Shown one piece after another: positions 39,151 through 56,079 of a DNA stretch of 64,000 nucleotides (the stretch's first letter is position 1; every line of letters begins with the position of its first letter). The translations under genes and the position numbers were made by a program. Origin of the DNA: Candidatus Zemynaea palustris (GTDB lineage Bacteria > Vulcanimicrobiota > Vulcanimicrobiia > Vulcanimicrobiales > Vulcanimicrobiaceae); contig PLCB01000037.1 of the NCBI GenBank assembly GCA_003134695.1, forward strand, positions 1-64,000, written 5' to 3'. The notes under the pieces are model-generated. The model worked only from the letters and a program-made list of their open reading frames with translations. It had not been told where the DNA came from and did no database searches.

Positions 39151-40041
39151 ATGAAAGGACGCTTTGTGATATCCGCAGCGGCCGTCGCGTTACTTCGATT
39201 GACGATCGTTTCGGCGTGCGCCGCGGTTGCGTGTCCGCTCGCGGCCGGCGCGCAGGCGAGCATTCCGACACCGGCTCCTTCGGCGTCGGCGGCTCCGACC
39301 GATCCGTGCTCGGGCGACACGCACCTGCTCGCAGTTCTCAATCGTCCGACGATCGGCTTCAGCGCGTGTGCTGAACCGCGTGGTCGGGTATTGGCGGAGG
39401 TCGGATACCAGAATCAGCTGCAAGGCGGTCCGCTTCCGACGGTGGCGACGCAGTACGCGCAACCATTCATCCGTTTCGGTGCCGGCGATCGCATCGAACT
39501 GGACCTGATCCCGCCGAACTACAACCTGACCCATCCGAGCGGCATGCCGCGCACCGTCGGTTTCAGCGACAGCGGCATCGGAGCGAAGTTCGAGATGCCG
39601 CCGTCAGCGCGAAGCATCTTCGCGATCGACACGTTGCTCACGTTTCCGAGCGGGAGCGGTGGGTTTTCGAATGGCGCCGCCGCCCTGACCGTCAACCTCG
39701 ACGCAGCGTATTCGCTGAGTCCCGTATTCGGCTTTGCAACGACTGCCGGGTTTTCTTCGACGGCTGGGTCGCTCCCGAGTGGATCGAACGCCCGGTACTT
39801 TACGTTCCTGCCGTCGGCCGTGGTGACGGCGCAATTTCCCGGTGCGGTGCAGCTCTACACTGAGGTGGCGCACACCAGCCACGTCGCGCCCGGCGCCGGA
39901 TCGCGCACGATTCTGAACGGCGGCGTGCAAAAGTTGCTGGGTCGGGGCGTCGAGGTGGACGTCGAATTGGGACAGACGCTCAACAATGCCGGCGCGCCTC
40001 GTTATCACTACTTTGGATTCGGTTTCGGTCTCGAGCGATAG
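39151..40041 (+). CDS. Secreted, probable outer-membrane beta-barrel protein
   Basis: A 296-residue protein with signal peptide and Pro/Ala/Ser-rich leader (ASIPTPAPSASAAPTDPC), then alternating beta strands typical of transporter-like barrels: GRVLAEVGYQNQLQG, IRFGAGDRIELDLIPPNYN, FSDSGIGAKFEMPPS, and a C-terminus YHYFGFGFGLER. Two Cys pairs near the mature N-terminus could form a disulfide. Starts 3 bases after the radical SAM gene. Barrel assignment is inference; function unknown. Confidence 0.6.
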   Translation: MKGRFVISAAAVALLRLTIVSACAAVACPLAAGAQASIPTPAPSASAAPTDPCSGDTHLLAVLNRPTIGFSACAEPRGRVLAEVGYQNQLQGGPLPTVATQYAQPFIRFGAGDRIELDLIPPNYNLTHPSGMPRTVGFSDSGIGAKFEMPPSARSIFAIDTLLTFPSGSGGFSNGAAALTVNLDAAYSLSPVFGFATTAGFSSTAGSLPSGSNARYFTFLPSAVVTAQFPGAVQLYTEVAHTSHVAPGAGSRTILNGGVQKLLGRGVEVDVELGQTLNNAGAPRYHYFGFGFGLER

Positions 40042-43622: not shown

Positions 43623-43712
43623 ATGCTTTGGCTTGAGATCGGCGTCGTTTTGATGGGCGTTGGGGGCTTCTGGCTGCTCGACGCCTACACGCGCGCTTTG
43701 GAACGGTTGTAG
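43623..43712 (+). CDS. 29-residue single-helix membrane micro-protein ahead of kdpF
   Basis: The open frame encodes MLWLEIGVVLMGVGGFWLLD then AYTRALERL and ends one base before the kdpF ATG. It has one membrane helix and a charged C-terminal tail (TRALERL). Its placement and tail suggest a small Kdp-associated subunit. I recall similar short frames ahead of kdpF in other high-GC bacteria but cannot verify that here. Codon use is GC3-rich like its neighbours, but at this length coding status is only moderately supported. Confidence 0.5.
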   Translation: MLWLEIGVVLMGVGGFWLLDAYTRALERL

Positions 43713-43713
43713 T

Positions 43714-43800
43714 ATGGCCGACGACATCCTCGGCATCGTCCTGACCGTGCTCGGCATGATCTACCTTGTCTACGCGATGTTGCGCCCGGAGAAGTTTTAG
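43714..43800 (+). CDS. kdpF: Potassium-transporting ATPase subunit KdpF
   Basis: A 28-residue single-helix protein (DDILGIVLTVLGMIYLVYAM, tail LRPEKF); the YLVYAMLRPEKF end matches the KdpF pattern. It stabilises the KdpABC complex in the membrane. kdpA follows 3 bases after its stop. Confidence 0.85.
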   Translation: MADDILGIVLTVLGMIYLVYAMLRPEKF

Positions 43801-43803
43801 ACG

Positions 43804-45504
43804 TTGAATACGTACGGTTGGGTTCAGGCCGCAGTCTTCTTCGGGCTCGTCGCTCTGCTGGCGAAGCCGGTCGGCTTGTACATGTCTGGGGTCTTCCAAG
43901 GCGAGCGGACCTTCCTTGCGCCGGTTTTCGGGCCGATCGAGCGCGGCTTCTATCGCCTCTGCCGGATCGATCCCGACGTCGAGATGAGCTGGGTCGAGTA
44001 CGTCATGGCGGTCCTCGCCTTCGGCGTGGTCGGCTTGATCTATCTCTACGTGCTCTTGCGCACTCAGGCGTGGTTGCCGTTCAATCCGCAGCATTTCCCG
44101 AACCTGAGCGCCGACAACGCCTGGAACGCCTCCGTCAGCTTCTTGACCAACACGAACTGGCAGTTCTACTCGGGCGAGAGCACGATGAGCTATTTCACGC
44201 AGATGGCGGGGCTCGCGTGGCATAACTTCGTTTCGGCTGCAACCGGGATCGCCGTCGCGATCGCGGTCGTTCGCGGCATCGCGCGCACCGACAAGAAAAC
44301 GCTCGGTAACTTCTGGGTCGATCTCACGCGTGCGACACTCTATGTTCTCGTGCCGATCAGCCTCGTCGGCGCGCTAGTTCTGGTCTGGCAGGGCGTTCCG
44401 CAGAACTTCCACGCCTACCACGACGTTGCGTCGCTTGAAGGCTTCAAACAGTCGATCACGGGCGGACCGATGGCCTCGCAAGAGATCATCAAGGAGCTCG
44501 GAACGAACGGCGGCGGTTTCGTCAACGCCAACTCGGCCTCGCCCAACGAGAACCCGACGCCGCTGAGTAATCTCATCGAAATGCTCGCGATCTTTCTCAT
44601 CGGCGCGGGCTTGACGTACACGTACGGGCGGATGGTGCGCGACCAGCGTCAAGGCTGGGCGCTGTTCGCGGCGATGAGCGTCCTCTTCGTCGGGGGATTC
44701 GCCGCGTCGTACGCCGCCGAAGCCGCCGGGAATCCGCTCGTCCACCAACTCGCCGTCGCGGGCGGCAACCTCGAGGGGAAGGAGCAGCGCTTCGGCGTCG
44801 CGGCATCGGCGCTGTTCGCGACGGTCACGACCGACACGTCGTGCGGAGCCGTGAACGCGATGCACGACTCGTTCATGCCGCTCGGCGGACTCGTCCCGCT
44901 GGCGAACATGCAACTCGGCGAGATCGTCTTCGGCGGCGTCGGAACGGGCCTCTACGGGATGATCGTCTTCGTCGTGCTGACGGTCTTCATCGCGGGCCTG
45001 ATGGTCGGGCGCACCCCCGAGTATCTCGGGAAGAAGATCGAGCGGCGCGAGATGCAGCTCGCGATTCTGGCGGCGCTCGTGCTTCCGGTGCTCGCGCTGA
45101 TCCCGTCTGCGGTTTCGGTGCTGTTGAAAGCCGGCACGGCGACGCTCGGCAACAACGGCGCGCACGGGTTCTCGGAGATCCTCTACATGTTTGCCTCGAC
45201 GACCGAGAACAACGGGAGTGCGTTCGCGGGCATCGGCGGTAACCTCTACTTGAACCTGGTCACCGGCGCCGTGATGCTCCTCGGTCGCTACGGCTTCCTC
45301 ATCCCGATCATGGCGCTCGCCGGCTCGCTCGCCGGGAAGAAGAGCGTCCCGGAGACGCTCGGAACCTTCAAGACGCACTCGCCGATCTTCGTGTTCCTCT
45401 TGCTCGGCGTGATCGTGATCGTCGGACTCTTGACGTTCGTCCCCGCCGACGCGCTGGGCCCGATCGTCGAGCAACTCCAACTCCAACAGGGCAAGGTGTT
45501 CTGA
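43804..45504 (+). CDS. kdpA: Potassium-transporting ATPase subunit KdpA (copy 1)
   Basis: A 566-residue channel-like subunit started by TTG with GGAGAAG upstream. Four pore-loop filters are visible: [30 protein letters not shown] (about residue 232), [15 protein letters not shown] (about 345) and [11 protein letters not shown]. KdpA binds and selects K+ and passes it to KdpB through the intersubunit tunnel. The filters have consensus form, so this copy should be the functional partner of kdpB and kdpC encoded next. Confidence 0.97.
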
Positions 45505-47558
45505 TGATTTCGCAGCGCCGTATCGAGCGCCGTCCGCAGTCGCGCTCACTCCTCGACACCGCGATTCTGTGGCGCGCGACGCTTGACTCGTTCGTGAAGC
45601 TCGACCCGCGCGTCCAGATGCGCAATCCCGTCATGTTCGTCGTCGAAGTCGGCGCCGCGGCAGTCACCGGCTTTTTCTTCCGTGACATCTTCACGCCGGG
45701 CCACGGCAGTGCCGGTTTCGACTTCGCGATCGCGGCGTGGTTGTGGTTTACCGTCGTATTCGCGAACTTCGCCGAAGCGATGGCGGAAGGCCGCGGAAAA
45801 GCGCAAGCGGAGTTCATGCGGCGCACGAAGACGGAGACGACCGCGCGCCGCGTCGTCGACGGGAAAGAGGAGGTCGTCAGCGCCGCCGCGCTGCGCCGCG
45901 GCGACGTCGTGCGCGTCAACGCCGGCGAGCTGGTTCCGGGCGACGGTGACGTGATCGAAGGTGCCGCAAGCGTCGACGAATCGGCGATTACGGGGGAGTC
46001 CGCCCCGGTCATCCGCGCGGCGGGCGGCGATCGCAGCGCCGTCACCGGTGGAACCCGTGTGCTTTCGGATAGCATCTTGATTCGCATCACCTCGAATCCC
46101 GGCGAGACGTTCCTCGACCGGATGATCGCGCTCGTCGAAGGTGCGCAACGGCAAAAGACGCCGAACGAGATCGCGCTCGCGATCCTGCTGGCAGGCTTGA
46201 CCATCATCTTCGTCATCGCGGTCGCGACGCTCGCACCGTTTTCGATTTACGCCGGCGCTCATCAGAGCGTGACGGTGCTGATCGCGCTCTTGGTCTGCCT
46301 GATTCCAACCACGATCGGCGGTTTGCTCTCGGCGATCGGGATCGCCGGGATGGACCGCGTCATGCAACGCAACGTCCTCGCCGCGAGCGGTCGCGCGGTC
46401 GAAGCCGCCGGCGACGTCGACACGCTTTTGCTCGACAAGACCGGGACGATTACCCTCGGGAACCGGCAGGCCAGCGAGTTCGTCGCGGCGCCGGGCGTCA
46501 CCGTCGAAGAGTTATCGCTGGCGGCCTACCTCTCGTCGTTGCCCGACGAGACGCCGGAGGGCCAGTCGATCGTCACTCTGGCGCAGACCTCGATTTCCGG
46601 CGAGGTCGCGATTCCAGCCGGTTCGACGTTCGTACCGTTCAGCGCATACACGCGGATGAGCGGACTCGATCTCGCCGGCGGCGGTGCGATTCGGAAAGGC
46701 GCGCCGGATGCGGTGCGCGCCTGGGTGCGCGAGCGTGGGGGCGAGGACTCAGGCGAGCTCTCGAAGGACGTGGAACGTATCGCGCGTTCCGGCGGAACGC
46801 CGCTCTTGCTGGCGCGCGACGGCCGGGTGCTCGCCGCGATCCATCTCAAAGACATCCTCAAGCCCAACACCAAGGAGCGGTTCGACAGGCTGCGCGCGAT
46901 GGGGATTCGGACGGTGATGATCACCGGCGACAACCCGCTCACGGCCAACGCGATCGCGCGTGAAGCGGGGGTCGACGACTTTCTCGCCGAGGCGACGCCG
47001 GAGACGAAGATGGCGCTCATCAAGCGCGAGCAAGTCTCGGGACGTCTTGTCGCGATGACCGGCGACGGCACCAACGACGCGCCCGCCTTGGCCCAAGCCG
47101 ACGTCGGCGTTGCGATGAACTCCGGGACGCAGGCGGCCAAAGAGGCCGCCAACATGATCGATCTCGACTCCGATCCGACTAAATTGATCGAGATCGTCGA
47201 GATCGGCAAGCAGCTCTTGATGACTCGCGGAGCGCTCACGACGTTTTCGATCGCCAACGACGTCGCGAAGTATTTCGCAATCCTGCCGGCGATGTTCGTG
47301 ATCGCCTATCCGGCGATGGACGTCCTCAACGTCATGCGGCTCAACCCGCACAGCGCGATCCTCTCGGCCGTGATCTTCAACGCGCTCATCATCGTCGCCC
47401 TGATCCCGCTCGCTCTCAAGGGCGTCGCCTACCGGCCGCGCGGTGCCGACGCCGTCTTGCGCGACAACGTGCTGGTCTACGGCGTCGGCGGAATCATCCT
47501 TCCGTTCATCGGAATCAAAATGATCGATATGTTGCTTGCGGCCTTCCACCTGACATGA
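45504..47558 (+). CDS. kdpB: Potassium-transporting P-type ATPase subunit KdpB
   Basis: A 684-residue P-type ATPase. Phosphorylated Asp in [12 protein letters not shown] (about residue 311), actuator motif [15 protein letters not shown]-site region [11 protein letters not shown] and hinge [20 protein letters not shown]. It powers K+ uptake with KdpA and KdpC. Its start overlaps the kdpA stop (TGATG), and kdpC overlaps its end. Confidence 0.97.
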
Positions 47559-48127
47559 AGAAACATCTCGTTACGGCCGCGCTCTTTACCGTTTTCTCGG
47601 TCATCGCACTCGGGATCGTGTACCCGCTGGTGATGACCGGGATCTCGATGCTCGTCTTCCCCGCGCAGGCCAACGGCTCGCTGGTCACGGCCAACGGCAA
47701 GGTCGTCGGTTCGCGGATTATCGGCCAACAGTGGACCAAACCGCAGTACTTCCACGGGCGCTTGTCGGCTGCGGGAAAAGGTTACGATCCGACCTCGACC
47801 GGCGGCACGAATCTGGCGCCGACCTCGAAGAAACTGATCGACGCGACCAAAGCGGCGGTCGTCGCGCTGAAGAAGGAAAACCCCGATGCGAGGGGACCGG
47901 TTCCGATGGATCTCGTCACCTCGAGCGCGAGCGGCATCGATCCCGACATCAGCGTCGAGGCTGCGTATTATCAAGTTCCACGCATCGCCAAGGCGCGCGG
48001 CCTCTCATCGGCGGCGGTCTATACCCTCGTCGACCATCACGTGCAGGGGCGCACCCTCGGGTTTCTGGGCGAACCCCGCGTCAACGTCTTGGAACTCAAC
48101 CTGAGCCTCGACGCCGCCCGAAGTTAG
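47555..48127 (+). CDS. kdpC: Potassium-transporting ATPase subunit KdpC
   Basis: A 190-residue protein with one N-terminal helix ([20 protein letters not shown]) and periplasmic domain containing [40 protein letters not shown] and [13 protein letters not shown], all conserved in KdpC. It stabilises the complex. ATG overlaps the kdpB stop by 4 bases. Confidence 0.96.
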
Positions 48128-48153: not shown

Positions 48154-49845
48154 ATGCCGGCGCTGAGTTGGATCAATCTTCTCGCCGTCCTCGGCGTCCT
48201 GTTGCTCCTGACCAAACCGCTCGGCGGATACATCGAGCGCGTCTTCGGCGGGCAGCGAACATTGTTGTCGCCGCTGCTCGAACCCGTCGAGCGCGTCGTC
48301 TACCGCTTGTGCCGCGTGTCGTCGGCCGAGATGTCGTGGAGCGGCTACGCGCTCGGGGCCCTTGCTGTCGGTGCGGCGTCGGTGAGCGCGCTCTACGTCA
48401 TTTTGCGGGTCCAGCAGTGGCTTCCGCTCAACCCACAGCATTTCACGAATTTGGCGCCGGACGTCGCATTCAATACCGCCATCAGCTTTGCGACGACGAC
48501 GAATTGGCAGGTTTATAGCGGCGAAAACGCCCTGAGTTATCTCTCCCAGATGGCCGGGATCGTGCCGCAGATGTTTGTGGCGAGCGCCGTCGGCTTGGCT
48601 CTAGGGATCGCCTTCATCCGAGCGCTGGCTCGCAGCGAATCAGGAACCCTCGGAAACTTCTGGGTCGATCTCATCCGCGGCATGCTCTACCTGATGCTGC
48701 CGCTCTCCGTCATCGGCACGCTGCTCTACGCCTCCCAAGGCGTTCCGCAAAACTTTCACGCCTACGCCGACGTGCTCAATGCGGAGGGGTTCAAGCAGGC
48801 CATAACGGGCGGTCCGATGGCCTCGGAGACGATCATCGAATTGCTCGGCGGCAACGGCGGCGGCTTCGTCGGCGCTAATGCGGCGTCGCCCAACGAGAAT
48901 CCGACCGCGCTCTGCAACTTCCTCGAGCTCCTGACGATGTTGCTGATTCCGGCCGCTTTGACCAACACGTTCGGCCGGATGGTCAAGGACGTGCGCCAAG
49001 GCTGGCTCCTGTTCGCGGCGATGGCGGTGCTGCTCGTCGGCGGCGCAGTCGTCGGACAGATCGCCGAATCGCACGGAAACCCCGCGATCGCCGCGCTCGG
49101 CGTGCACGGCCCCAATTGGGAGGGGAAGGAGGCCCGGTTCGGCCCTGACTCTGCCGGACTCTCGGTTGCGGTCGCGACCGCCACGGGAAACGGCGCCGCG
49201 AACGCAACGTATGATTCGCTCATGCCGCTTGCGGACTTGGTCGCGCTCGCCAACATGCAAACCTCGGAAGTCATCTTCGGCGGCGTCGGGAGCGGATTGT
49301 ACGGTATGCTGATCTACGCGATCCTGACCGTCTTCATCGCCGGACTGATGGTGGGCCGAACGCCCGAGTATCTCGGGAAGAAGATCGCGCGCCGCGAGGT
49401 GCAGTTTGCGATGCTCGCGGTCTTGGCGTTCGCGCTTGCGGTTCTCGTCCCGGCGGCGATCGCATCGGTCTCGCGCGATGGCCGGGCCGTCCTCGGTAAC
49501 GGCGGACCTCATGGGTTCAGCGAGATCGTCTACGCTTTCACCTCGACGGCGGCGAACAACGGAAGCGCGATGGCCGGGCTCGGCTCGAACCTCTTCTACA
49601 ATCTCATGACCGCCGGAGCGATGTTCGTCGGGCGGTTCGCCGTCGCGATCGCGACGATGGCGCTCGCCGGTTCCCTCGCCGCGCAATCAAAGAGCGTGCG
49701 TCTGTCGCGGGGCACCTTCCGGACCGACACGGTCATGTTCGGCGCCTTGCTGCTCGGCGTCGTCGTCATCGTCGGCGCGCTGACGTTCCTCCCCGCCGAT
49801 TTACTCGGCCCGATCGTCGAGCAAGCGATAAACGCACGTCACTGA
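48154..49845 (+). CDS. Second, divergent KdpA paralogue
   Basis: A 563-residue KdpA homologue 26 bases after kdpC, in addition to the copy at 43804. Architecture and helices are retained, but pore loops differ: TTTNWQVYSGE, GGNGGGFVGANAASPNENP, ATGNGAANATYDSL in place of [14 protein letters not shown], and TAANNGSAMAG. The change of the third loop and of GTN to GGN may alter ion selectivity or affinity. It may be an alternative KdpA for the same KdpB and KdpC or a regulatory form. Identity as a KdpA homologue is certain; role is inference. Confidence 0.93.
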   Translation: MPALSWINLLAVLGVLLLLTKPLGGYIERVFGGQRTLLSPLLEPVERVVYRLCRVSSAEMSWSGYALGALAVGAASVSALYVILRVQQWLPLNPQHFTNLAPDVAFNTAISFATTTNWQVYSGENALSYLSQMAGIVPQMFVASAVGLALGIAFIRALARSESGTLGNFWVDLIRGMLYLMLPLSVIGTLLYASQGVPQNFHAYADVLNAEGFKQAITGGPMASETIIELLGGNGGGFVGANAASPNENPTALCNFLELLTMLLIPAALTNTFGRMVKDVRQGWLLFAAMAVLLVGGAVVGQIAESHGNPAIAALGVHGPNWEGKEARFGPDSAGLSVAVATATGNGAANATYDSLMPLADLVALANMQTSEVIFGGVGSGLYGMLIYAILTVFIAGLMVGRTPEYLGKKIARREVQFAMLAVLAFALAVLVPAAIASVSRDGRAVLGNGGPHGFSEIVYAFTSTAANNGSAMAGLGSNLFYNLMTAGAMFVGRFAVAIATMALAGSLAAQSKSVRLSRGTFRTDTVMFGALLLGVVVIVGALTFLPADLLGPIVEQAINARH

Positions 49846-51965
49846 TCCGTCGCGGCCAGGATCAGCAGCTGCTTCGCGCCGGCGTCGAGAAGGCGCCGGC
49901 CGAAAGGTACGCCGCGCGGCCACAGCGGCTTGTGCCGCGCGCCCTCGACCGCGATCGTCGTCGCCCCCTCTTCCTTCGCGGCCGCGACGAGGGCGACGGC
50001 GGGATCTTTTCCGCTGACGACGCGCCACCGGCCACGGACGCGGCGGGTCGCGTCCTCGAGCGCCGTCGTGACGCGCGAAGGCGAAGTGCCGCCGCCCCCG
50101 GCGTGAACGACCGTGAAGTCGATCCCGAGTCGCTGCGTCAAACGAGCACAGCGTTCGATGAGATCGATCTCGCGTTCGCGTGCTTTGACGCCGAGCGCGA
50201 GGCGCGCAAACGGCGACGGCCCGCGCTCGCCGCGAGCGTGCACGACCTCGCGCAGCGCCAGTTCCCGCAGCGCCGAGAGATTCTCGGTCTTGAAGAAGTT
50301 GGCGAGGGCGGCGTCGATCTTTTCTTGCCGGTAGATCTTGCCGGCGCGCAGGCGCTCGCGCAGCGTCTCGGGCGTCGTATCGATCAAGATGACCTCGTCG
50401 GCGATTTCGAGGATGTCGTCGGGGATCGTTTCGCGGACACGCTGGCCCGTCAGACGGTAGACCGCGTCGCCGAGACCTTCGAGGTGTTGGACGTTGAGCG
50501 TGGTCATCACCGAAATCCCCGCGCGCAGCACCTGTAAGACGTCGTCGAAGCGCTTGGCGTGCTCGTCACCGAGGGCATTGGTGTGCGCCAGTTCGTCGAT
50601 CAAGGCCACCTTCGGATGCCGTTTTAACAGCGCGTCAAGATCGAGTTCGCTGGCCTGCACGCCCTCCGATCCGATGATGCGGCGCGGCAAGACCTCGAGC
50701 TCGCCGATCTTCGCTTCAGTATCCGCCCGGCCGTGGGTCTCGATCAGGGCGCCGACGACATCGACGCCTTCCTCGCGAAGTTGATGCGCGCGCTCGAGCA
50801 TCGCGTAGGTCTTTCCGCTTCCCGCGGCCGCGCCCAAGTAGATCGTCAACTTGCCGTAGCCGATGCGCATTCGATCGGCGGACGTCTGCGCGTAGCGCGA
50901 GAAACTCATCGAACGGTCCGGTGCGTCGACAAGGGCCGTGGGATCGACGATGAAGACGTCGCGCTCGGCCGGTGAGGTCGCGACGCGTTGCGCGAGCGGC
51001 CCGAGCGGGATCGAGACGAGGCTTGCGCGCAATTCGCCGAAACGCGGTCGATTGGCATCGAAGGTCGCGATCGGAACGACGTGCGCGTCGACGTCGCGCG
51101 CCAAGGTCGCGAGCGCATCGAGGTCCCGTTCGCCGACCAGCGCGACGTCGAGCGCGAGATCGAGCGCTTCGGCGAACGAAGCCGATTTGCGCAAGAACGT
51201 GCCGAGGTCGCCGTTTCCGGTCGCGAGAGCGATCAGCGTCGAAGCTTTGCGCGCCACGACCGCCGGCTCGGTGAGATCGTCGATCGTTCGCAGCATCATC
51301 TCGCGCAAGAAGCGCAAGGTTTGCGGGCGGAAGACGCCGCCGCGTGCCGCAGCCACGTCGGCCGGTGCGACGATCGCTCCGGCGGTGAGGCGGGATTCGA
51401 ATTGTTCGGGCGCGAGATCAATCGCCACGACCTGATCGGCGACGCGCAGGAACGACATTGGGACGATTTCGCGGATCCGGTGGCCGATCAAGCGTTCCGC
51501 CGCCGCCGCCACGGCCTCGACGTGCTGGATGTTGAGGGCGCCGGCGACGCCGATACCGGCGTCACGTAAGGCGAGTGCATCCTCCCAACGCTTGGCGTGT
51601 TTGCTGCCCGGAAGATTCGTGTGTGCGAGCTCGTCGAGGACGACGAATTGCGGCCGCATCGTCAGCGTCGCGTCGTAATCAAATTCTTCGAAGACCGAAC
51701 TTTCGATTTTGACTCTTCGTGGGGGGACGCGAGGCAGTTGAGCGGCCAGACGATCGAGGTCGGGTCTTCCCTTCGTCTCGATCCAGCCGAGGACGACGCG
51801 CGTCCCCTCGCGCTGCAGGGCGAGCGCATCCTCGAGAAGCCGCCGCGTCTTGCCCGCGCCCGGCGCGACGGCGAGATAGACCGTCAAGCGCGGCGCGAGG
51901 CCGAGATCCTTGAGCAGTGCTTCGGCGGAGCTCTCTCCAAAACGTTCGTTCACCGGCGCGTTCAT
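49839..51965 (-). CDS. KdpD-type sensor with two fused input modules and no kinase
   Basis: A 708-residue cytoplasmic protein made of two KdpD N-terminal modules in tandem. Module 1: Walker A VAPGAGKTRRLLEDA (33-41), VVLDELAHTNLPGSKHAKRW (109 on), ALNIQHVEAV (143 on), then a USP-like domain (~245-345). Module 2: AAAGSGKTYAMLERA (379-386), ALIDELAHTNALGDEHAKRF (454 on), TLNVQHLEGL (489 on), then a second USP-like domain (~585-708). There are no membrane helices, GAF, HisKA or ATPase domains, which normal KdpD has. It is convergent with kdpA2, overlapping by 7 bases, and divergent from a separate kinase gene. In the family these modules sense K+, ionic strength or c-di-AMP. Confidence 0.92.
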   Translation of the reverse strand: MNAPVNERFGESSAEALLKDLGLAPRLTVYLAVAPGAGKTRRLLEDALALQREGTRVVLGWIETKGRPDLDRLAAQLPRVPPRRVKIESSVFEEFDYDATLTMRPQFVVLDELAHTNLPGSKHAKRWEDALALRDAGIGVAGALNIQHVEAVAAAAERLIGHRIREIVPMSFLRVADQVVAIDLAPEQFESRLTAGAIVAPADVAAARGGVFRPQTLRFLREMMLRTIDDLTEPAVVARKASTLIALATGNGDLGTFLRKSASFAEALDLALDVALVGERDLDALATLARDVDAHVVPIATFDANRPRFGELRASLVSIPLGPLAQRVATSPAERDVFIVDPTALVDAPDRSMSFSRYAQTSADRMRIGYGKLTIYLGAAAGSGKTYAMLERAHQLREEGVDVVGALIETHGRADTEAKIGELEVLPRRIIGSEGVQASELDLDALLKRHPKVALIDELAHTNALGDEHAKRFDDVLQVLRAGISVMTTLNVQHLEGLGDAVYRLTGQRVRETIPDDILEIADEVILIDTTPETLRERLRAGKIYRQEKIDAALANFFKTENLSALRELALREVVHARGERGPSPFARLALGVKAREREIDLIERCARLTQRLGIDFTVVHAGGGGTSPSRVTTALEDATRRVRGRWRVVSGKDPAVALVAAAKEEGATTIAVEGARHKPLWPRGVPFGRRLLDAGAKQLLILAATDQ

Positions 51966-51970
51966 TCTAG

Positions 51971-52012
51971 GGCGCGGGACGTTGCCCCGCGCCGGCCTTT
52001 TAAGGGCGCGGG
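51971..52012 (+). promoter_or_regulatory. Two mutually exclusive GC stem-loops, attenuator-like leader of the kinase gene
   Basis: CCCGCGCC (51986-51993) can pair with the identical segment GGCGCGGG upstream (51971-51978, 7-base loop) or downstream (52005-52012, 11-base loop). The downstream form is followed by TCCCCCTTTT, like an intrinsic terminator; the upstream form would prevent it. It lies 32 bases before the kinase start codon. Confidence 0.45.
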
Positions 52013-52043
52013 TCCCCCTTTTCGTAACACCGAAGTCCTAGGC

Positions 52044-53612
52044 GTGTCCCCGCGTTGGATCCGTCCGGCTTGCATCGTGCTGCTGGTTGCGGCATGGGTC
52101 CTGGACGTGATTACGCCGCAGCTCCTGATCGTCGCAATCTTGCTGAACGGCCCGATTGCGCTGAGCAGTCTCGCGAGCGACTCGCGTTTCACCCGCATTT
52201 TGGTCGTGCTCGCGGTGGCGGCCGACGCCAGCGGCGGCTACATCAACGGTTTGGCCGAGCACCATTGGGACACGATCGCGCTCTGGAATCGGGCGTTGGT
52301 CGCGCTTTCGTTATTCTTGGTTGGGAGTCTCAGCATCACCGCGCAGCAAGCGGCTCGGCGCGCCGGTGAGTCGGCGGCGAGGGAAGCGCGCGTGTCGCGC
52401 GAGCGCGACCTGCGGCGCGCCGTCGAGGCCATTCGCGCGTCGATCAACTCCGAGTTGATCGCGCGAGCGGCGGCACGTGGAGCACTCGACGCGCTGCACG
52501 CCGATCGAGCGCTCATCTATGTCTTCGACGAAAGCCGCGAGGTCTTCACTACCTACGACGCCGCCGGCGACGATCTGCGCGTCACGCCGGCCCGACCTCC
52601 CTCGCCGGTCCTTTCGCTTCTCGAACGCATCGCGGAGAGCCGTACCCTCGTTCGCCTCAGCGCGGCGGACACCGTTGCTCGGTTCGCGCTGGATGCGCTG
52701 GGGACGCCGCACGCGATCGGCGTCGCCCTGGCCGAGCACGACCAGCTCTTCGGCGTTCTCATTCTGTTACGGAGAGACGCGCCGTTTGAGGAAAATTTTG
52801 AAGAGGGCCTACAATATTACGCCGACCAAACGGGCATCGCTATGGCTCAGGCTTCACTGTTCGGGCAGCTGGCCGATCGCAACGAGGCGCTGGCCTTGGC
52901 AAATGCCGCGCTACGCGAGCAAAGCGACGTCATCCGTGACCTCGTCTACGCGCTTTCACATGATCTGCGAACGCCGCTCGCAGCCACGAGCCTTACGCTC
53001 CGTCAGGCTCTCGAGGGCGCCTACGGCGCGCTGCCGCAGGCGTATCGCGAGATTCTCGAACGGACGATTCGCTCGAACGACGAGCTGCAACGGCTTGCCG
53101 AGACGCTCTTGCTCGTCTCGCGGTACGAATCCGGCGACCCCTCGCCGCGCCGCGACGTCGTCGACGTAACGGCGCTGGCGCGATCGGTCGTCGACGAACT
53201 CGCGCCGCTTTGGCAGGAGAAGCGGCTGGCCGTACGCGTCGAAACGGTGGAGGCGGTCGACGTCGCAGGCGACGAGTCCGAACTGCGACGCGCACTCGTC
53301 AACCTGGTCGCCAACGCGGTGAAGTTCACGCCGGCCGGCGGCACGATCGGCGTTCGAGTCGCCGCGAACGAGCGCGCCTCCATCGTCGTCGAAGATAGCG
53401 GTTACGGTGTCGGCGAGGCCGAGCGCGCGACGCTCTTCCAACGAAGTCACGGCGATCCGCGGGTCGGCTCGAGTTCGGGGCTGGGCCTTTACCTGGTACG
53501 GCGGATCGCCGAAGGTCACGGCGGCCGTGTAGCCTACGCGCCACGACCGGGCGGCGGCAGCGCCTTCGCCATGGAACTCCCGCTCGTAGCCGAAGTCCCC
53601 GCGTCGAGATGA
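52044..53612 (+). CDS. Membrane GAF histidine kinase, probable transmitter half of a split KdpD
   Basis: A 522-residue kinase from the GTG at 52044; the longer open frame upstream is antisense to the sensor gene. The first ~95 residues hold three to four helices (ACIVLLVAAWVLDVITPQLL, ALVALSLFLVGSLSITA), then a coiled linker, a GAF domain (~130-270; AHGALDAL-type start, LALDALGTPHAIGVALAEHD region), HisKA with His306 in YALSHDLRTPLAATS, and HATPase_c with LVNLVANAVKFTP and GSSSGLGLYLVRRIAEGHGG. That order equals the C-terminal half of KdpD. ATGA coupling to the next gene makes a two-component pair. Confidence 0.88.
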   Translation: MSPRWIRPACIVLLVAAWVLDVITPQLLIVAILLNGPIALSSLASDSRFTRILVVLAVAADASGGYINGLAEHHWDTIALWNRALVALSLFLVGSLSITAQQAARRAGESAAREARVSRERDLRRAVEAIRASINSELIARAAARGALDALHADRALIYVFDESREVFTTYDAAGDDLRVTPARPPSPVLSLLERIAESRTLVRLSAADTVARFALDALGTPHAIGVALAEHDQLFGVLILLRRDAPFEENFEEGLQYYADQTGIAMAQASLFGQLADRNEALALANAALREQSDVIRDLVYALSHDLRTPLAATSLTLRQALEGAYGALPQAYREILERTIRSNDELQRLAETLLLVSRYESGDPSPRRDVVDVTALARSVVDELAPLWQEKRLAVRVETVEAVDVAGDESELRRALVNLVANAVKFTPAGGTIGVRVAANERASIVVEDSGYGVGEAERATLFQRSHGDPRVGSSSGLGLYLVRRIAEGHGGRVAYAPRPGGGSAFAMELPLVAEVPASR

Positions 53613-54247
53613 GCGAGCCACGAACCGTCGTCCTAATCGAAGATCATAGCCTGACGCGGGCCGGCCTGCGGACCGCGCTCGAGGCGAGTGGTGAACTGCG
53701 CATCGTGGCGGAGGCCGAAGACGGACCGAGCGGTCTGGACGCCATCGTCGCTCGAAAGCCCGACGTCGCCGTCGTCGACATCGGCTTGCCGGGGATCGAC
53801 GGCATCGAGGTGACGCGGCGCGCACGCCTCGTGGCGCCCGGGACCCGCGTCGTGATCCTGACGGTCCACGATCTCGAGACCGAAGTGCTGGCGGCACTTT
53901 CCGCCGGCGCCGACGCCTATTGTTTGAAGACTTCGCCGCCGGAGCGAATCGTCGCGGCGGTGATGACCGCGGCCGACGGCGGGGCGTATTTCGATCCCGG
54001 GATCGCGCGCGTCGTCATGCGCAATCTTGGCGCGCCGAACGCGCCGGCCTCTTCGTCACCGTTGACGCCGCGCGAGACGGAGATCTTGCGCATGATCGCC
54101 GAGGGCCACGGCAACACCGAAATCGCTAAGACGCTCTATCTCGGACTCGGTACGGTGAAGGGGCACATTCGCGACATCCTCGAGAAACTGGCCGCCGTCG
54201 ACCGAACGCAAGCAGCAGTCGTCGCGCTCAGGCGAGGTTTGATCTAG
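53609..54247 (+). CDS. NarL/FixJ-family response regulator
   Basis: A 212-residue regulator: receiver domain with ED at 11-12, phospho-Asp57 in VAVVDIGLPGIDG and the LKTSPPERI Lys, then a LuxR-type helix-turn-helix (LTPRETEILRMIAEGHGNTE, YLGLGTVKGHIRDILEKL). It overlaps the kinase stop (ATGA). A KdpE partner would be OmpR-type, so if this pair controls kdp it is a replacement. Convergent with the GNAT gene, overlapping by 4 bases. Confidence 0.94.
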   Translation: MSEPRTVVLIEDHSLTRAGLRTALEASGELRIVAEAEDGPSGLDAIVARKPDVAVVDIGLPGIDGIEVTRRARLVAPGTRVVILTVHDLETEVLAALSAGADAYCLKTSPPERIVAAVMTAADGGAYFDPGIARVVMRNLGAPNAPASSSPLTPRETEILRMIAEGHGNTEIAKTLYLGLGTVKGHIRDILEKLAAVDRTQAAVVALRRGLI

Positions 54248-54726
54248 AGGAAGCGGTGCATCACGAGGGCGTCGACCTCGCCGAGTGTCGCATGGCGAAA
54301 CGCCTTTGGTAGGCGGCCGACGGTCTCGAAGCCATGGCGTTGCCAGAGGCGTACGGCCGCTTCGTTCGTGCCGACGACGAAATTGAATTGCATCGCACGA
54401 AAACCCGCCGCACGCGCCGCGACGAGCGAATGCTCGCACATCGCTCCGGCGATGCCGCGGCCGCGAAAGGCGGGATCGACGAGGTAGCCGGCGTTGCCGA
54501 CATGATCGCCGAGACCCATTTGGTTCGGGTGGAGCATGTACGTTCCGGCGATCTGCCCCTCGACGACCGCCACGAAAACGTGCGATCTCGGCGGAAACCA
54601 ATACGCGCGAAATTCGTCGTCGCCGGCGCCCGGTGCCGGCGTCAACGTGTCGCCGCCGGCAACTGCGAGTTCGAAGATGGCGCGTATCCGAGGAACGTCC
54701 TCGGCAGCCGCCGAGCGAATCTCGAT
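54244..54726 (-). CDS. GNAT-family N-acetyltransferase, apparent ATC start
   Basis: A GNAT fold with acetyl-CoA loop VDPAFRGRGIAGAMCEHSLV and C-terminal NFVVGTNEAAVRLWQRHGFE. The first canonical codon in frame (TTG 54645) drops the family's first strand and helix. The 27 codons before it encode exactly that element (EIRSAAAEDVPRIRAIFELA, then VAGGDTLTP). An ATC at 54726 begins this reading and shares an A with the upstream TAA stop (TAATC). With ATC the protein is 160 residues, usual for the family. Substrate unknown. Confidence 0.82.
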   Translation of the reverse strand: MEIRSAAAEDVPRIRAIFELAVAGGDTLTPAPGAGDDEFRAYWFPPRSHVFVAVVEGQIAGTYMLHPNQMGLGDHVGNAGYLVDPAFRGRGIAGAMCEHSLVAARAAGFRAMQFNFVVGTNEAAVRLWQRHGFETVGRLPKAFRHATLGEVDALVMHRFL

Positions 54727-55400
54727 TACTTCGATCCAACCAGAGCACGACGAACTTCGTCGCGCGAATCTTTGTGCACCATCACGATGATCTGGTCGCC
54801 GGCCTTGACCTGCGTGTCCCCGCTAGGGATCACGAGTTCGTCACCCTTGCGATCGACGGCGACGACGACGCTCGAACGCGGCAGCCCGATGTCGACGATG
54901 CGTTTGCCATCGGAGGGCGCGCCCGGCCCGATCGAAAGCTTCACCAGCTCGAGCGCGCCGTCGCGCATCTTCGTTAGGACCGAGTAGTCGCGCGTCTGGA
55001 CGTGCTCGTTGATCGCATCGAGGAGGATCTCGGTCGACGAGATCGTCTCGATCGGGTGCTCCGGGTCGATCGACTCGAAGATGAGACGATTCTTCGGGTT
55101 GTTGACACGCGCGATGCAGCGTGCCTTCGACTGGCGTTTGGCGATCAGGCAAACGACCAGGTTGTCTTCATCGTCGCCGGTATCGGCGACAACGACATCG
55201 GCTCGGCTCAGGCCCGCAGCGTCGAGGACCACCGGGTCGCAACCGTCACCGACGACGGCGACGTCGCTTTCCACCATCGTTGCGAGCACCTGCGCCTTGC
55301 GCGCCACCTTCTCGACGACGATGACTTCTTGTTTCTGGGCGAGCAGAGCGCGCGCGAGATACGTCCCGACCTTCCCGCCGCCAACGATCAGAATGAACAC
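54726..55400 (-). CDS. TrkA/KtrA-like potassium channel regulator, copy 1
   Basis: A 224-residue GTG-started protein with Rossmann RCK_N domain (FILIVGGGKVGTYLARALLA, ADVVVADTGDDEDNLVVCLI) and C-terminal RCK_C domain (GLPRSSVVVAVDRKGDELVI, GDQIIVMVHKDSRDEV). It forms gating rings binding NAD(H) or ATP for Trk/Ktr K+ uptake. The paralogue at 55402 precedes it, one base apart; such pairs (CeoB/CeoC type) occur in several phyla. No TrkH/KtrB gene is present in the window. Confidence 0.93.
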   Translation of the reverse strand: MFILIVGGGKVGTYLARALLAQKQEVIVVEKVARKAQVLATMVESDVAVVGDGCDPVVLDAAGLSRADVVVADTGDDEDNLVVCLIAKRQSKARCIARVNNPKNRLIFESIDPEHPIETISSTEILLDAINEHVQTRDYSVLTKMRDGALELVKLSIGPGAPSDGKRIVDIGLPRSSVVVAVDRKGDELVIPSGDTQVKAGDQIIVMVHKDSRDEVRRALVGSK

Positions 55401-55401
55401 G

Positions 55402-56079
55402 TTACGAGATGATTTCTACCGGCGCTTTCGCCGAGGTCGCGAATCGTTTGGAAAATTGTTCGAGCGCCTCCGGAGCGACGATCGCCCTGATTTCGTCGCC
55501 CTCCTGGAGGACGACGTCGTTTCCGGGGATCACCACGCGGCCGCCACGGCGCAGAGCCGCTATCTTGACGCGAGCATCCTGCTCGAGTTCGGCGACGCGC
55601 GTCCCCGCAACGTCTTTCGGGACGATGATCGATAGGGCCGAAATACCGCCATAGTCAAAAGACGGCGTCGATTCAAACGGCATGTTCAGCAGTCTGTCGC
55701 GGATAACTTTCGCGCCCATCGTGGTCGGACAGACCGTTTCGATGCCGAGCTCGCGGTACAGCTGCCCGCGCGGTGGATCGTAGATGCGCGCGACGATTTT
55801 CTTGATGCCGAACATGCGCTGCGCGATGAGCGCGGCCATCACGTTCCGGTTGTCGCCGTCGGTGACGGCGACGAAGCCGTCGGCATCGGCTGCGCCGGCA
55901 CGTTTGAGGACGTCGTAGTCGATGCCGGTGCCGACCTCGACCCGTCCGGGAAAGCGTACGCCTAAACGCTTGAAGGCGGCGGGGTTTTCGTCGATGACGA
56001 CGACGTCGTGGCCTTCCGCGGCCAGAAGTTTTGCAAGTTGCGATCCGACGCGTCCGCAGCCGACGATAACGTATTTCAT
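55402..56079 (-). CDS. TrkA/KtrA-like potassium channel regulator, copy 2
   Basis: A 225-residue RCK protein: KYVIVGCGRVGSQLAKLLAA (GxGxxG), VVVIDENPAAFKRLG with the ribose-binding acidic residue, ADGFVAVTDGDNRNVMAALI, and C-terminal domain VAELEQDARVKIAALRRGGR. It likely forms a hetero-oligomeric gating ring with the neighbouring copy. First gene of the minus-strand trkA-trkA-GNAT operon, 77 bases from the tRNA gene. Confidence 0.93.
   Translation of the reverse strand: MKYVIVGCGRVGSQLAKLLAAEGHDVVVIDENPAAFKRLGVRFPGRVEVGTGIDYDVLKRAGAADADGFVAVTDGDNRNVMAALIAQRMFGIKKIVARIYDPPRGQLYRELGIETVCPTTMGAKVIRDRLLNMPFESTPSFDYGGISALSIIVPKDVAGTRVAELEQDARVKIAALRRGGRVVIPGNDVVLQEGDEIRAIVAPEALEQFSKRFATSAKAPVEIIS

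Follow-up and report, generated by a model that had tools for sequence, protein, structure and literature searches.

Kdp is described as a P-type pump with a borrowed K+ channel filter that is extremely selective for K+, and the locus studied here holds a second copy of its channel subunit. The window, by which we mean the whole stretch of 64,000 nucleotides that was analyzed (contig PLCB01000037.1 of Candidatus Zemynaea palustris), comes from an assembly of 2.7 Mb in 61 contigs that is 96.66% complete; the named close matches of its phylum are Candidatus Eremiobacterota, which the taxonomy places under Vulcanimicrobiota. As claimed in the original prediction, the window carries a complete kdpF-kdpA1-kdpB-kdpC set on the forward strand (43714-48127), each gene scoring above its family cut-off: kdpF (43714..43800, 28 amino acids; TIGR02115, 36.6 bits against a cut-off of 26.85), a canonical kdpA with a TTG start, here called kdpA1 (43804..45504; TIGR00680, 752.5 bits; loops 1, 2, and 4 reading TNTNW, TNGGG, and NNGSA), kdpB (45504..47558; TIGR01497, 1016.6 bits), which is the sole kdpB of the assembly above the family cut-off, and kdpC (47555..48127; NF001454, 230.8 bits, and TIGR00681, 211.4 bits). 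Starting 26 bases 3′ of the kdpC stop codon on the same strand is kdpA2 (48154..49845), a second kdpA whose product has an altered selectivity filter. Convergent with kdpA2, and overlapping it by 7 bases, is a minus-strand gene for a KdpD-like protein without a kinase domain (49839..51965; KdpD sensor domain PF02702 matched in two stretches, 492.8 bits; NF038185, 467.4 bits, below the cut-off of 550). On the plus strand follow a GAF/HisKA/HATPase sensor kinase (51597..53612, with its true start probably 3′ of the first GTG) and a NarL-type response regulator (53609..54247), with two TrkA-like genes (54726-56079) 3′ of both. The replacement of KdpDE by a kinase-less KdpD-like gene, a separate GAF histidine kinase, and a NarL-type regulator is a common arrangement in relatives.

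The kdpA2 frame is open from an ATG start through 563 codons for amino acids, with no internal stop. Its product matches KdpA over its full length (PF03814, 685.8 bits against a cut-off of 22.6; TIGR00680, 632.4 bits against 387.7), and an NCBIfam scan at an E value of 0.001 returned kdpA only; this match above the curated cut-off, together with the predicted fold, places it in the KdpA family. The assembly holds two KdpA matches, kdpA1 and kdpA2, which are 56% identical. An AlphaFold2 model of KdpA2, built from window proteins and translations from related loci, reached a mean pLDDT of 79.1 and a pTM of 0.85, with poorly modeled filter loops (some positions below 50) for which we claim no geometry. 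Its nearest solved chains are all E. coli KdpA (Z 48.7, 47.6, and 46.5; best 7nnp_A, over 552 residues at 2.3 Å), and the PDB sequence match to E. coli KdpA has an E value of 3.6e-142. Compared with KdpA of the E. coli KdpFABC complex (PDB 6hra, 5mrw, and 7nnp), KdpA2 shares full-length homology, fold, vestibule and KdpB-contact residues, and four pore loops; it differs in five residues at or adjoining the filter, in being a second copy, and in lacking a kdpF, kdpB, and kdpC of its own. KtrB, TrkH, and HKT come next after KdpA in fold similarity, with Z scores from 24.8 to 15.7; they have the fold of the pore part in common with KdpA2 (Z about 16-25) at 11-16% identity over about 330-386 residues. 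None of these three is known to dock a P-type ATPase.

The original prediction located the change in the third selectivity loop, and the loops it quoted are present as given (GGNGGGFVGAN for loop 2, ATGNGAANATYDS for loop 3), but the alteration is wider and extends to loop 1, which had been missed and reads TTTNW for TNTNW. With residues numbered as in E. coli KdpA (MG1655 record), the window copy carries N112T in loop 1 (its own residues 114-119, TTTNWQ for canonical TNTNWQ; 48493..48510), T230G in loop 2 (residues 233-238, GNGGGF for TNGGGF; 48850..48867), and S343G, C344N, and H351Y in loop 3 (residues 345-355, GNGAANATYDS; 49186..49218), all on the plus strand. Loop 4 is unchanged (residues 468-472, NNGSA; 49555..49569, plus strand), glycines 232 and 345 are kept, and so are Q116, E370, R400, and R493. 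By equivalence with KcsA, we take positions 112, 230, 343, and 466 to form the innermost ring of the filter (T75 level), and three of these four putative ring positions are altered in KdpA2. PMC12629597 describes the innermost site, S4, as held from below by two side-chain oxygens, and we infer that these belong to T230 and S343. The same paper is the source for the roles of Q116, E370, R493, and V496, and PMC6255902 places R400, F386, L389, L422, V538, and L541 at the KdpB interface; Q116, E370, R493, and R400 between them cover the vestibule, the tunnel entrance, and the KdpB anchor. By its profile match and fold KdpA2 is a KdpA family member, but it lacks the canonical filter signature (TNTNW / TNGGG / SxG) and so ought not to be classed with the ordinary subunits of KdpFABC.

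In an alignment of 172 canonical KdpAs, 17 columns of the filter reach 95% conservation or more, N112, T230, and S343 among them, and only 4 of the 172 rows lose any of these filter invariants. Throughout the KdpA2 clade, N112T, S140A, and T230G/V were each found in 19 of 19 rows and H351Y in 18 of 18; S343 was changed in 14 of 18 rows (glycine in 11, threonine in 3, serine in 4), while N114 was aspartate in 15 of 19 and is kept in the window copy. G232 and Q116 were retained in 19/19 rows, E370 and R400 in 18/18, R493 in 17/17, and L541 in 15/17. Overall, 138 canonical columns were at least 95% conserved, and for 99 of them 90% or more of the KdpA2 rows had the canonical residue. In a second count, made with the 172 canonical rows, 132 columns qualified, 17 in the filter and 115 elsewhere, and those lost in more than half of KdpA2 rows made up 4/17 of the filter (112, 114, 230, and 343) versus 6/115 elsewhere (24, 69, 140, 281, 339, and 510), giving a Fisher p of 0.025; complete losses only gave 2/17 versus 2/115 (p 0.08), and the window copy alone 3/17 versus 12/115 (p 0.30, not significant), with all of these p values describing the concentration of changes only, rows within one clade being kin. 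Dropped before counting were KdpA pieces of up to 300 amino acids (up to 450 in the 172-row count), same-gene duplicates, L191 (which contains N), and L046 (a duplicate of the E. coli row). Since near-fixed positions are hit and the same positions are altered across a related clade, the filter change goes beyond chance. Outside the filter, the cytosolic stretch near KdpB differs in most KdpA2 copies, with asparagine at position 513 in 16/17 and mostly aspartate at 523; position 513 is valine in most canonical KdpAs and in the window copy. The other contact and tunnel residues described in PMC6255902 and PMC12629597 are kept in KdpA2 or vary as they do in ordinary KdpA.

We searched 149 genomes of the phylum with a profile built from five altered copies and found KdpA in 98, for 97 of which (all except G067) the KdpA sequences were inspected. 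The altered type, defined by TTT[DN]W, [GV]NGGG, and Y[DE]S, occurs in 21/149 genomes, all of them in the window's family (21/99) and spread over 12 genera (G000, G003, G015, G016, G019, G029, G069, G070, G072, G074, G080, G082, G085, G086, G103, G104, G113, G119, G120, G124, and G128). These counts include the copy in G019, truncated at a contig end and typed by loop 1 alone, and leave out a short N-terminal KdpA piece of uncertain type in G078. KdpA2 was not found in the other 78/99 genomes of the family, some of which are incomplete assemblies, and a genus mate of the window's genome, G001 (74% complete), yielded no KdpA match. All 10 of the KdpA2 genomes that are at least 90% complete also hold a canonical kdpA and a kdpB, whole or in part. 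A minority of copies look damaged: that of G103 is split over two frames, and in that of locus L035 a stretch of about 14 residues behind loop 4 is missing. Internal stops were absent from the clade's listed matches. Chance, an assembly artefact, or a pseudogene as the source of kdpA2 is ruled out by its open frame and by a clade in 21 genomes.

A phylogeny of both copies placed the KdpA2 rows in one clade, sister to the ordinary KdpAs of the phylum. In an 82-row tree, all KdpA2 rows fell on one side of a branch with an SH-aLRT support of 99, and the split held in a tree built without the four pore regions (73 rows, 17 of them KdpA2), where supports were 94 for KdpA2, 97 for ordinary Eremiobacterota KdpA, and 99 for all others. 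Both trees are quick reconstructions, and a long branch of 0.79 changes per column leads to the window copy. From the position of the clade, the duplication came before ordinary KdpA spread through the window's family and another family of the class. We reject horizontal import of KdpA2 from elsewhere, since the clade stays sister to the KdpAs of its own phylum whether or not the pore columns are included. Close KdpA2 pairs gave dN/dS values of 0.068-0.105 (five pairs), similar to those of ordinary KdpA pairs (0.055-0.204, ten pairs). KdpA2 is under purifying selection; as one clade in 21 of 149 genomes it is neither isolated to this assembly nor decaying in relatives, either of which had been named at the outset as counting against it. 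Together, these findings establish KdpA2 as an ancient within-phylum duplicate of KdpA, held by purifying selection in one family, in which the pump-facing residues are kept and the filter set is changed.

The position of the gene had been given as following kdpC, which is true of the window and, among the 21 KdpA2 genomes, of the window only; in the others the gene stands mostly beside the operon and sometimes away from it, and across the family it has frequently been lost. Many relatives share the block mutL-miaA-dapF-radical SAM protein-CPA1 antiporter-(ammonium transporter)-(kdpA2)-outer-membrane protein(s)-kdpFABC-KdpD-like-kinase-regulator, in which mutL was assigned from reading its translation. 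A kdp gene lies within a few kb of kdpA2 on the same stretch in 15/21 genomes, frequently with kdpA2 and kdpA1 in divergent orientation. The contig breaks off on the kdp-facing side of kdpA2 in G072, G074, and G085, the stretch in G015 is short, and in G016 (L033) and G029 (L034) the gene is detached, the sequence inspected around it holding no kdp gene. No KdpA2 in these loci is followed by its own kdpB or stands in the canonical order kdpF-kdpA-kdpB-kdpC. A KdpF-like ORF was seen in 0/13 regions upstream of KdpA2 versus 12/13 canonical regions in a hand-picked set, and KdpA2 would therefore need borrowed partners. Adjoining KdpA2 we found a CPA1 antiporter in 12/21 genomes and AmtB in 5/21. 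Both kinds of gene are found next to kdp loci without KdpA2 as well (for example L208, L222, L226, and L227), which rules them out as dedicated partners and marks them as features of the locus that say nothing of the substrate of KdpA2; Amt by itself gives no support for a role of KdpA2 with NH4+. Several Eremiobacterota have an AmtB-type ammonium transporter gene inside their kdp locus (L162 8672-9919, L173 1166-2413, L181 1485-2732, and L167 from 7874); it stands directly behind kdpA2 on the same strand in four genomes, and is present in kdp loci without KdpA2 in L043, L208, and L222.

Extra KdpA copies also occur outside the phylum, in the Bryobacterales of the Acidobacteriota (L143 and L148, with L275-L277 from the same order) and in one order of Bacteroidota (L145 8001-9728, L273 8242-9963, and L274 11771-13471), with the signatures TxTSW, SDGG or SDGA, and mostly SDG. 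The Bacteroidota copies carry a TGTSW / ASDGG filter. Like KdpA2, the copies of both groups have no kdpB following, have an altered filter, and keep E370, R400, and R493, and those of L143 and L148 also stand right behind kdpC as in the window; unlike KdpA2, they carry N114S, T230S, N231D, and mostly aspartate at the position of C344, and they occupy separate places in the tree. A 45-row tree grouped the Bacteroidota copies with the ordinary KdpAs of that order (support 99) and the Acidobacteriota copies within a mainly Acidobacteriota group (90); neither joined KdpA2, and on this tree we reject a common origin. All three clades show changes at positions 114 and 230, with 114 altered in the majority of KdpA2 rows, and the filter share of lost invariants was 5/17 for the Acidobacteriota copies (p 0.013) and 4/17 for the Bacteroidota copies (p 0.084). 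A kdpB above cut-off was found in 8/9 of the outside genomes with extra copies; in G272 (L273), an assembly of 2.2 Mb that is perhaps incomplete, the search found just one KdpA, the altered copy, and no kdpB above cut-off. When 297 Acidobacteriota genomes were scanned, the SDGG type appeared among the best 25 loci in the query genome only, so such copies are rare in that phylum. An alphaproteobacterial extra KdpA (L085, at 1318 on the minus strand) reads TTTTW and lies about 6.6 kb from a kdpA-kdpB pair. This copy sits on a long branch with unsure placement and has N112T and S140A in common with the Eremiobacterota clade. In L250 (592-2343), an ordinary kdpB-linked KdpA carries N114D (TNTDW), a change the window copy lacks, and so at least this change occurs in a kdpB-linked setting.

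The explanation we favor, with confidence about evenly balanced, is that KdpA2 serves as an alternative channel subunit of the Kdp pump that replaces KdpA1 on the single KdpB/KdpC and alters ion affinity or selectivity. KdpA2 would swap for KdpA1 on the sole KdpB/KdpC (and KdpF) to give two pump isoforms differing in filter, and the retention of the residues that the pump needs next to KdpB favors this predicted swap into KdpBC. T230 and S343, which may supply the side-chain oxygens near the inner mouth of the filter, have given way to other residues (glycine in both cases in the window), so that weaker binding would be expected at the inner K+ site. We would expect a pump of lower affinity with a looser choice among K+, Rb+, and NH4+, and not a Na+ pump. 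Gene order and the known control of Kdp suggest that in the window kdpA2 is co-transcribed at the tail of kdpFABC and thus made under K+ limitation; in most relatives, where it lies beside the operon, it presumably has its own control. Several features of sequence and gene order favor a shared KdpB engine, namely the co-occurrence with kdpB, the proximity to kdp genes, the kept interface, the kdpB-linked N114D of L250, and the separately arisen copies in two other phyla. Against it stand the lack of an own kdpB, the detached copies of G016 and G029, the 513/523 stretch, the kdpB-less G272, the p of 0.30 for the window copy alone, and the absence from 78/99 family genomes; the co-occurrence with kdpB may also reflect only common ancestry of the locus.

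A precedent for the functional side is the E. coli KdpA filter mutant G232D, which admits Rb+ and NH4+ according to PMC12629597; by analogy with this mutant, Rb+ or NH4+ may perhaps pass KdpA2. Like G232D and related laboratory mutants, KdpA2 presents a changed filter in an otherwise normal KdpA; unlike G232D, its changes are natural, ancient, and conserved, and they fall at other positions, with G232 itself kept.

A rival reading, which we consider unlikely, is that KdpA2 acts independently of KdpB, either as a channel or as an uptake protein like Trk, Ktr, and HKT, and is perhaps gated by another partner. The absence of its own kdpB, kdpC, and kdpF, the detached copies in G016 and G029, and the altered KdpA without kdpB in G272 would fit such a protein, as would the resemblance of its model to KtrB, TrkH, and HKT next after KdpA and the presence in the locus of TrkA-like proteins, the CPA1 antiporter, and in some genomes the ammonium transporter. 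However, the antiporter and Amt genes are not its particular partners, as they also occur at kdp loci without it, and every KdpA2 row that spans the side tunnel and KdpB-contact residues E370, R493, and R400 retains them. Moreover, KdpA in the solved pump is sealed beneath its intramembrane loop, according to PMC6255902, and on a coarse look we noted no change in KdpA2 that would open it.

Less probable still is that KdpA2 dampens the pump, either as a partner that conducts poorly or not at all and titrates KdpB/KdpC, or by serving as an assembly aid or a sensor. The kept interface would allow it to occupy KdpB, side-chain loss at the inner filter could cut conduction, and the window copy is last in the operon and faces the kinase-less KdpD-like gene. 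On the other hand, all four loops are present with G232, G345, and the loop 4 motif kept, and close pairs are under strong purifying selection, whereas a mere titrating partner needs no kept filter; for the related suggestion in the original prediction that KdpA2 acts as a dominant regulator, we found nothing specifically in its favor. The least convincing alternative, an ageing duplicate with little present function that is heading for loss, would fit the absence from 78/99 family genomes, the damaged copies of G103 and L035, and the long branch of the window copy, but we regard it as improbable given the low dN/dS of the five close pairs, the lack of stops inside the listed clade matches, and the change of identical sites across an ancient clade.

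Natural filter variants that have been conserved for so long are ready-made experiments on the filter changes that evolution tolerates. They can test whether selectivity is seated in the filter of KdpA or at the site of KdpB, and they could show a P-type ATPase running with exchangeable selectivity subunits. We tentatively suggest, though with a good deal less than even confidence, that Kdp is modular, with a channel gene duplicated independently in at least three phyla and filters rebuilt at overlapping, normally fixed positions to give interchangeable cartridges for one KdpB engine, which might handle NH4+ or Rb+-like ions, or else K+ at a different affinity. A search of mostly open-access literature listed no description of a second kdpA of this kind.

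Finally, the surroundings of the locus yielded several minor observations. An Rfam scan of window positions 36000-60000 and 11 loci returned tRNAs only, which rules out a riboswitch common to kdp and kdpA2 in these stretches, while the promoter scan gave 1 site versus 0.7 expected and the terminator scan 9 versus 5.9 expected, and these sites were set aside. A family of secreted-looking proteins of about 280-300 amino acids stands beside kdp in many relatives (window 39151-40041; L157 1014-1853; L164 4075-4959); the members in the window and L157 had no Pfam match, and it is possible that the family is an outer-membrane protein. Another frequent neighbor of kdp is a BBP2-type porin (L158 2218-3594). 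Immediately 5′ of kdpF, the window has a hydrophobic ORF of 29 amino acids (43623..43712, plus strand) with no NCBIfam match, and small hydrophobic ORFs 5′ of kdpA1 are also present in L036, L039, L041-L044, L162, L163, L203, and L210 and in the alphaproteobacterial L081, L086, and L096. Such an ORF of about 27-31 amino acids recurs beside kdpF in kdp operons, often ends in CE[KR][LVI] or CDR[LI], and may encode a further small Kdp subunit.
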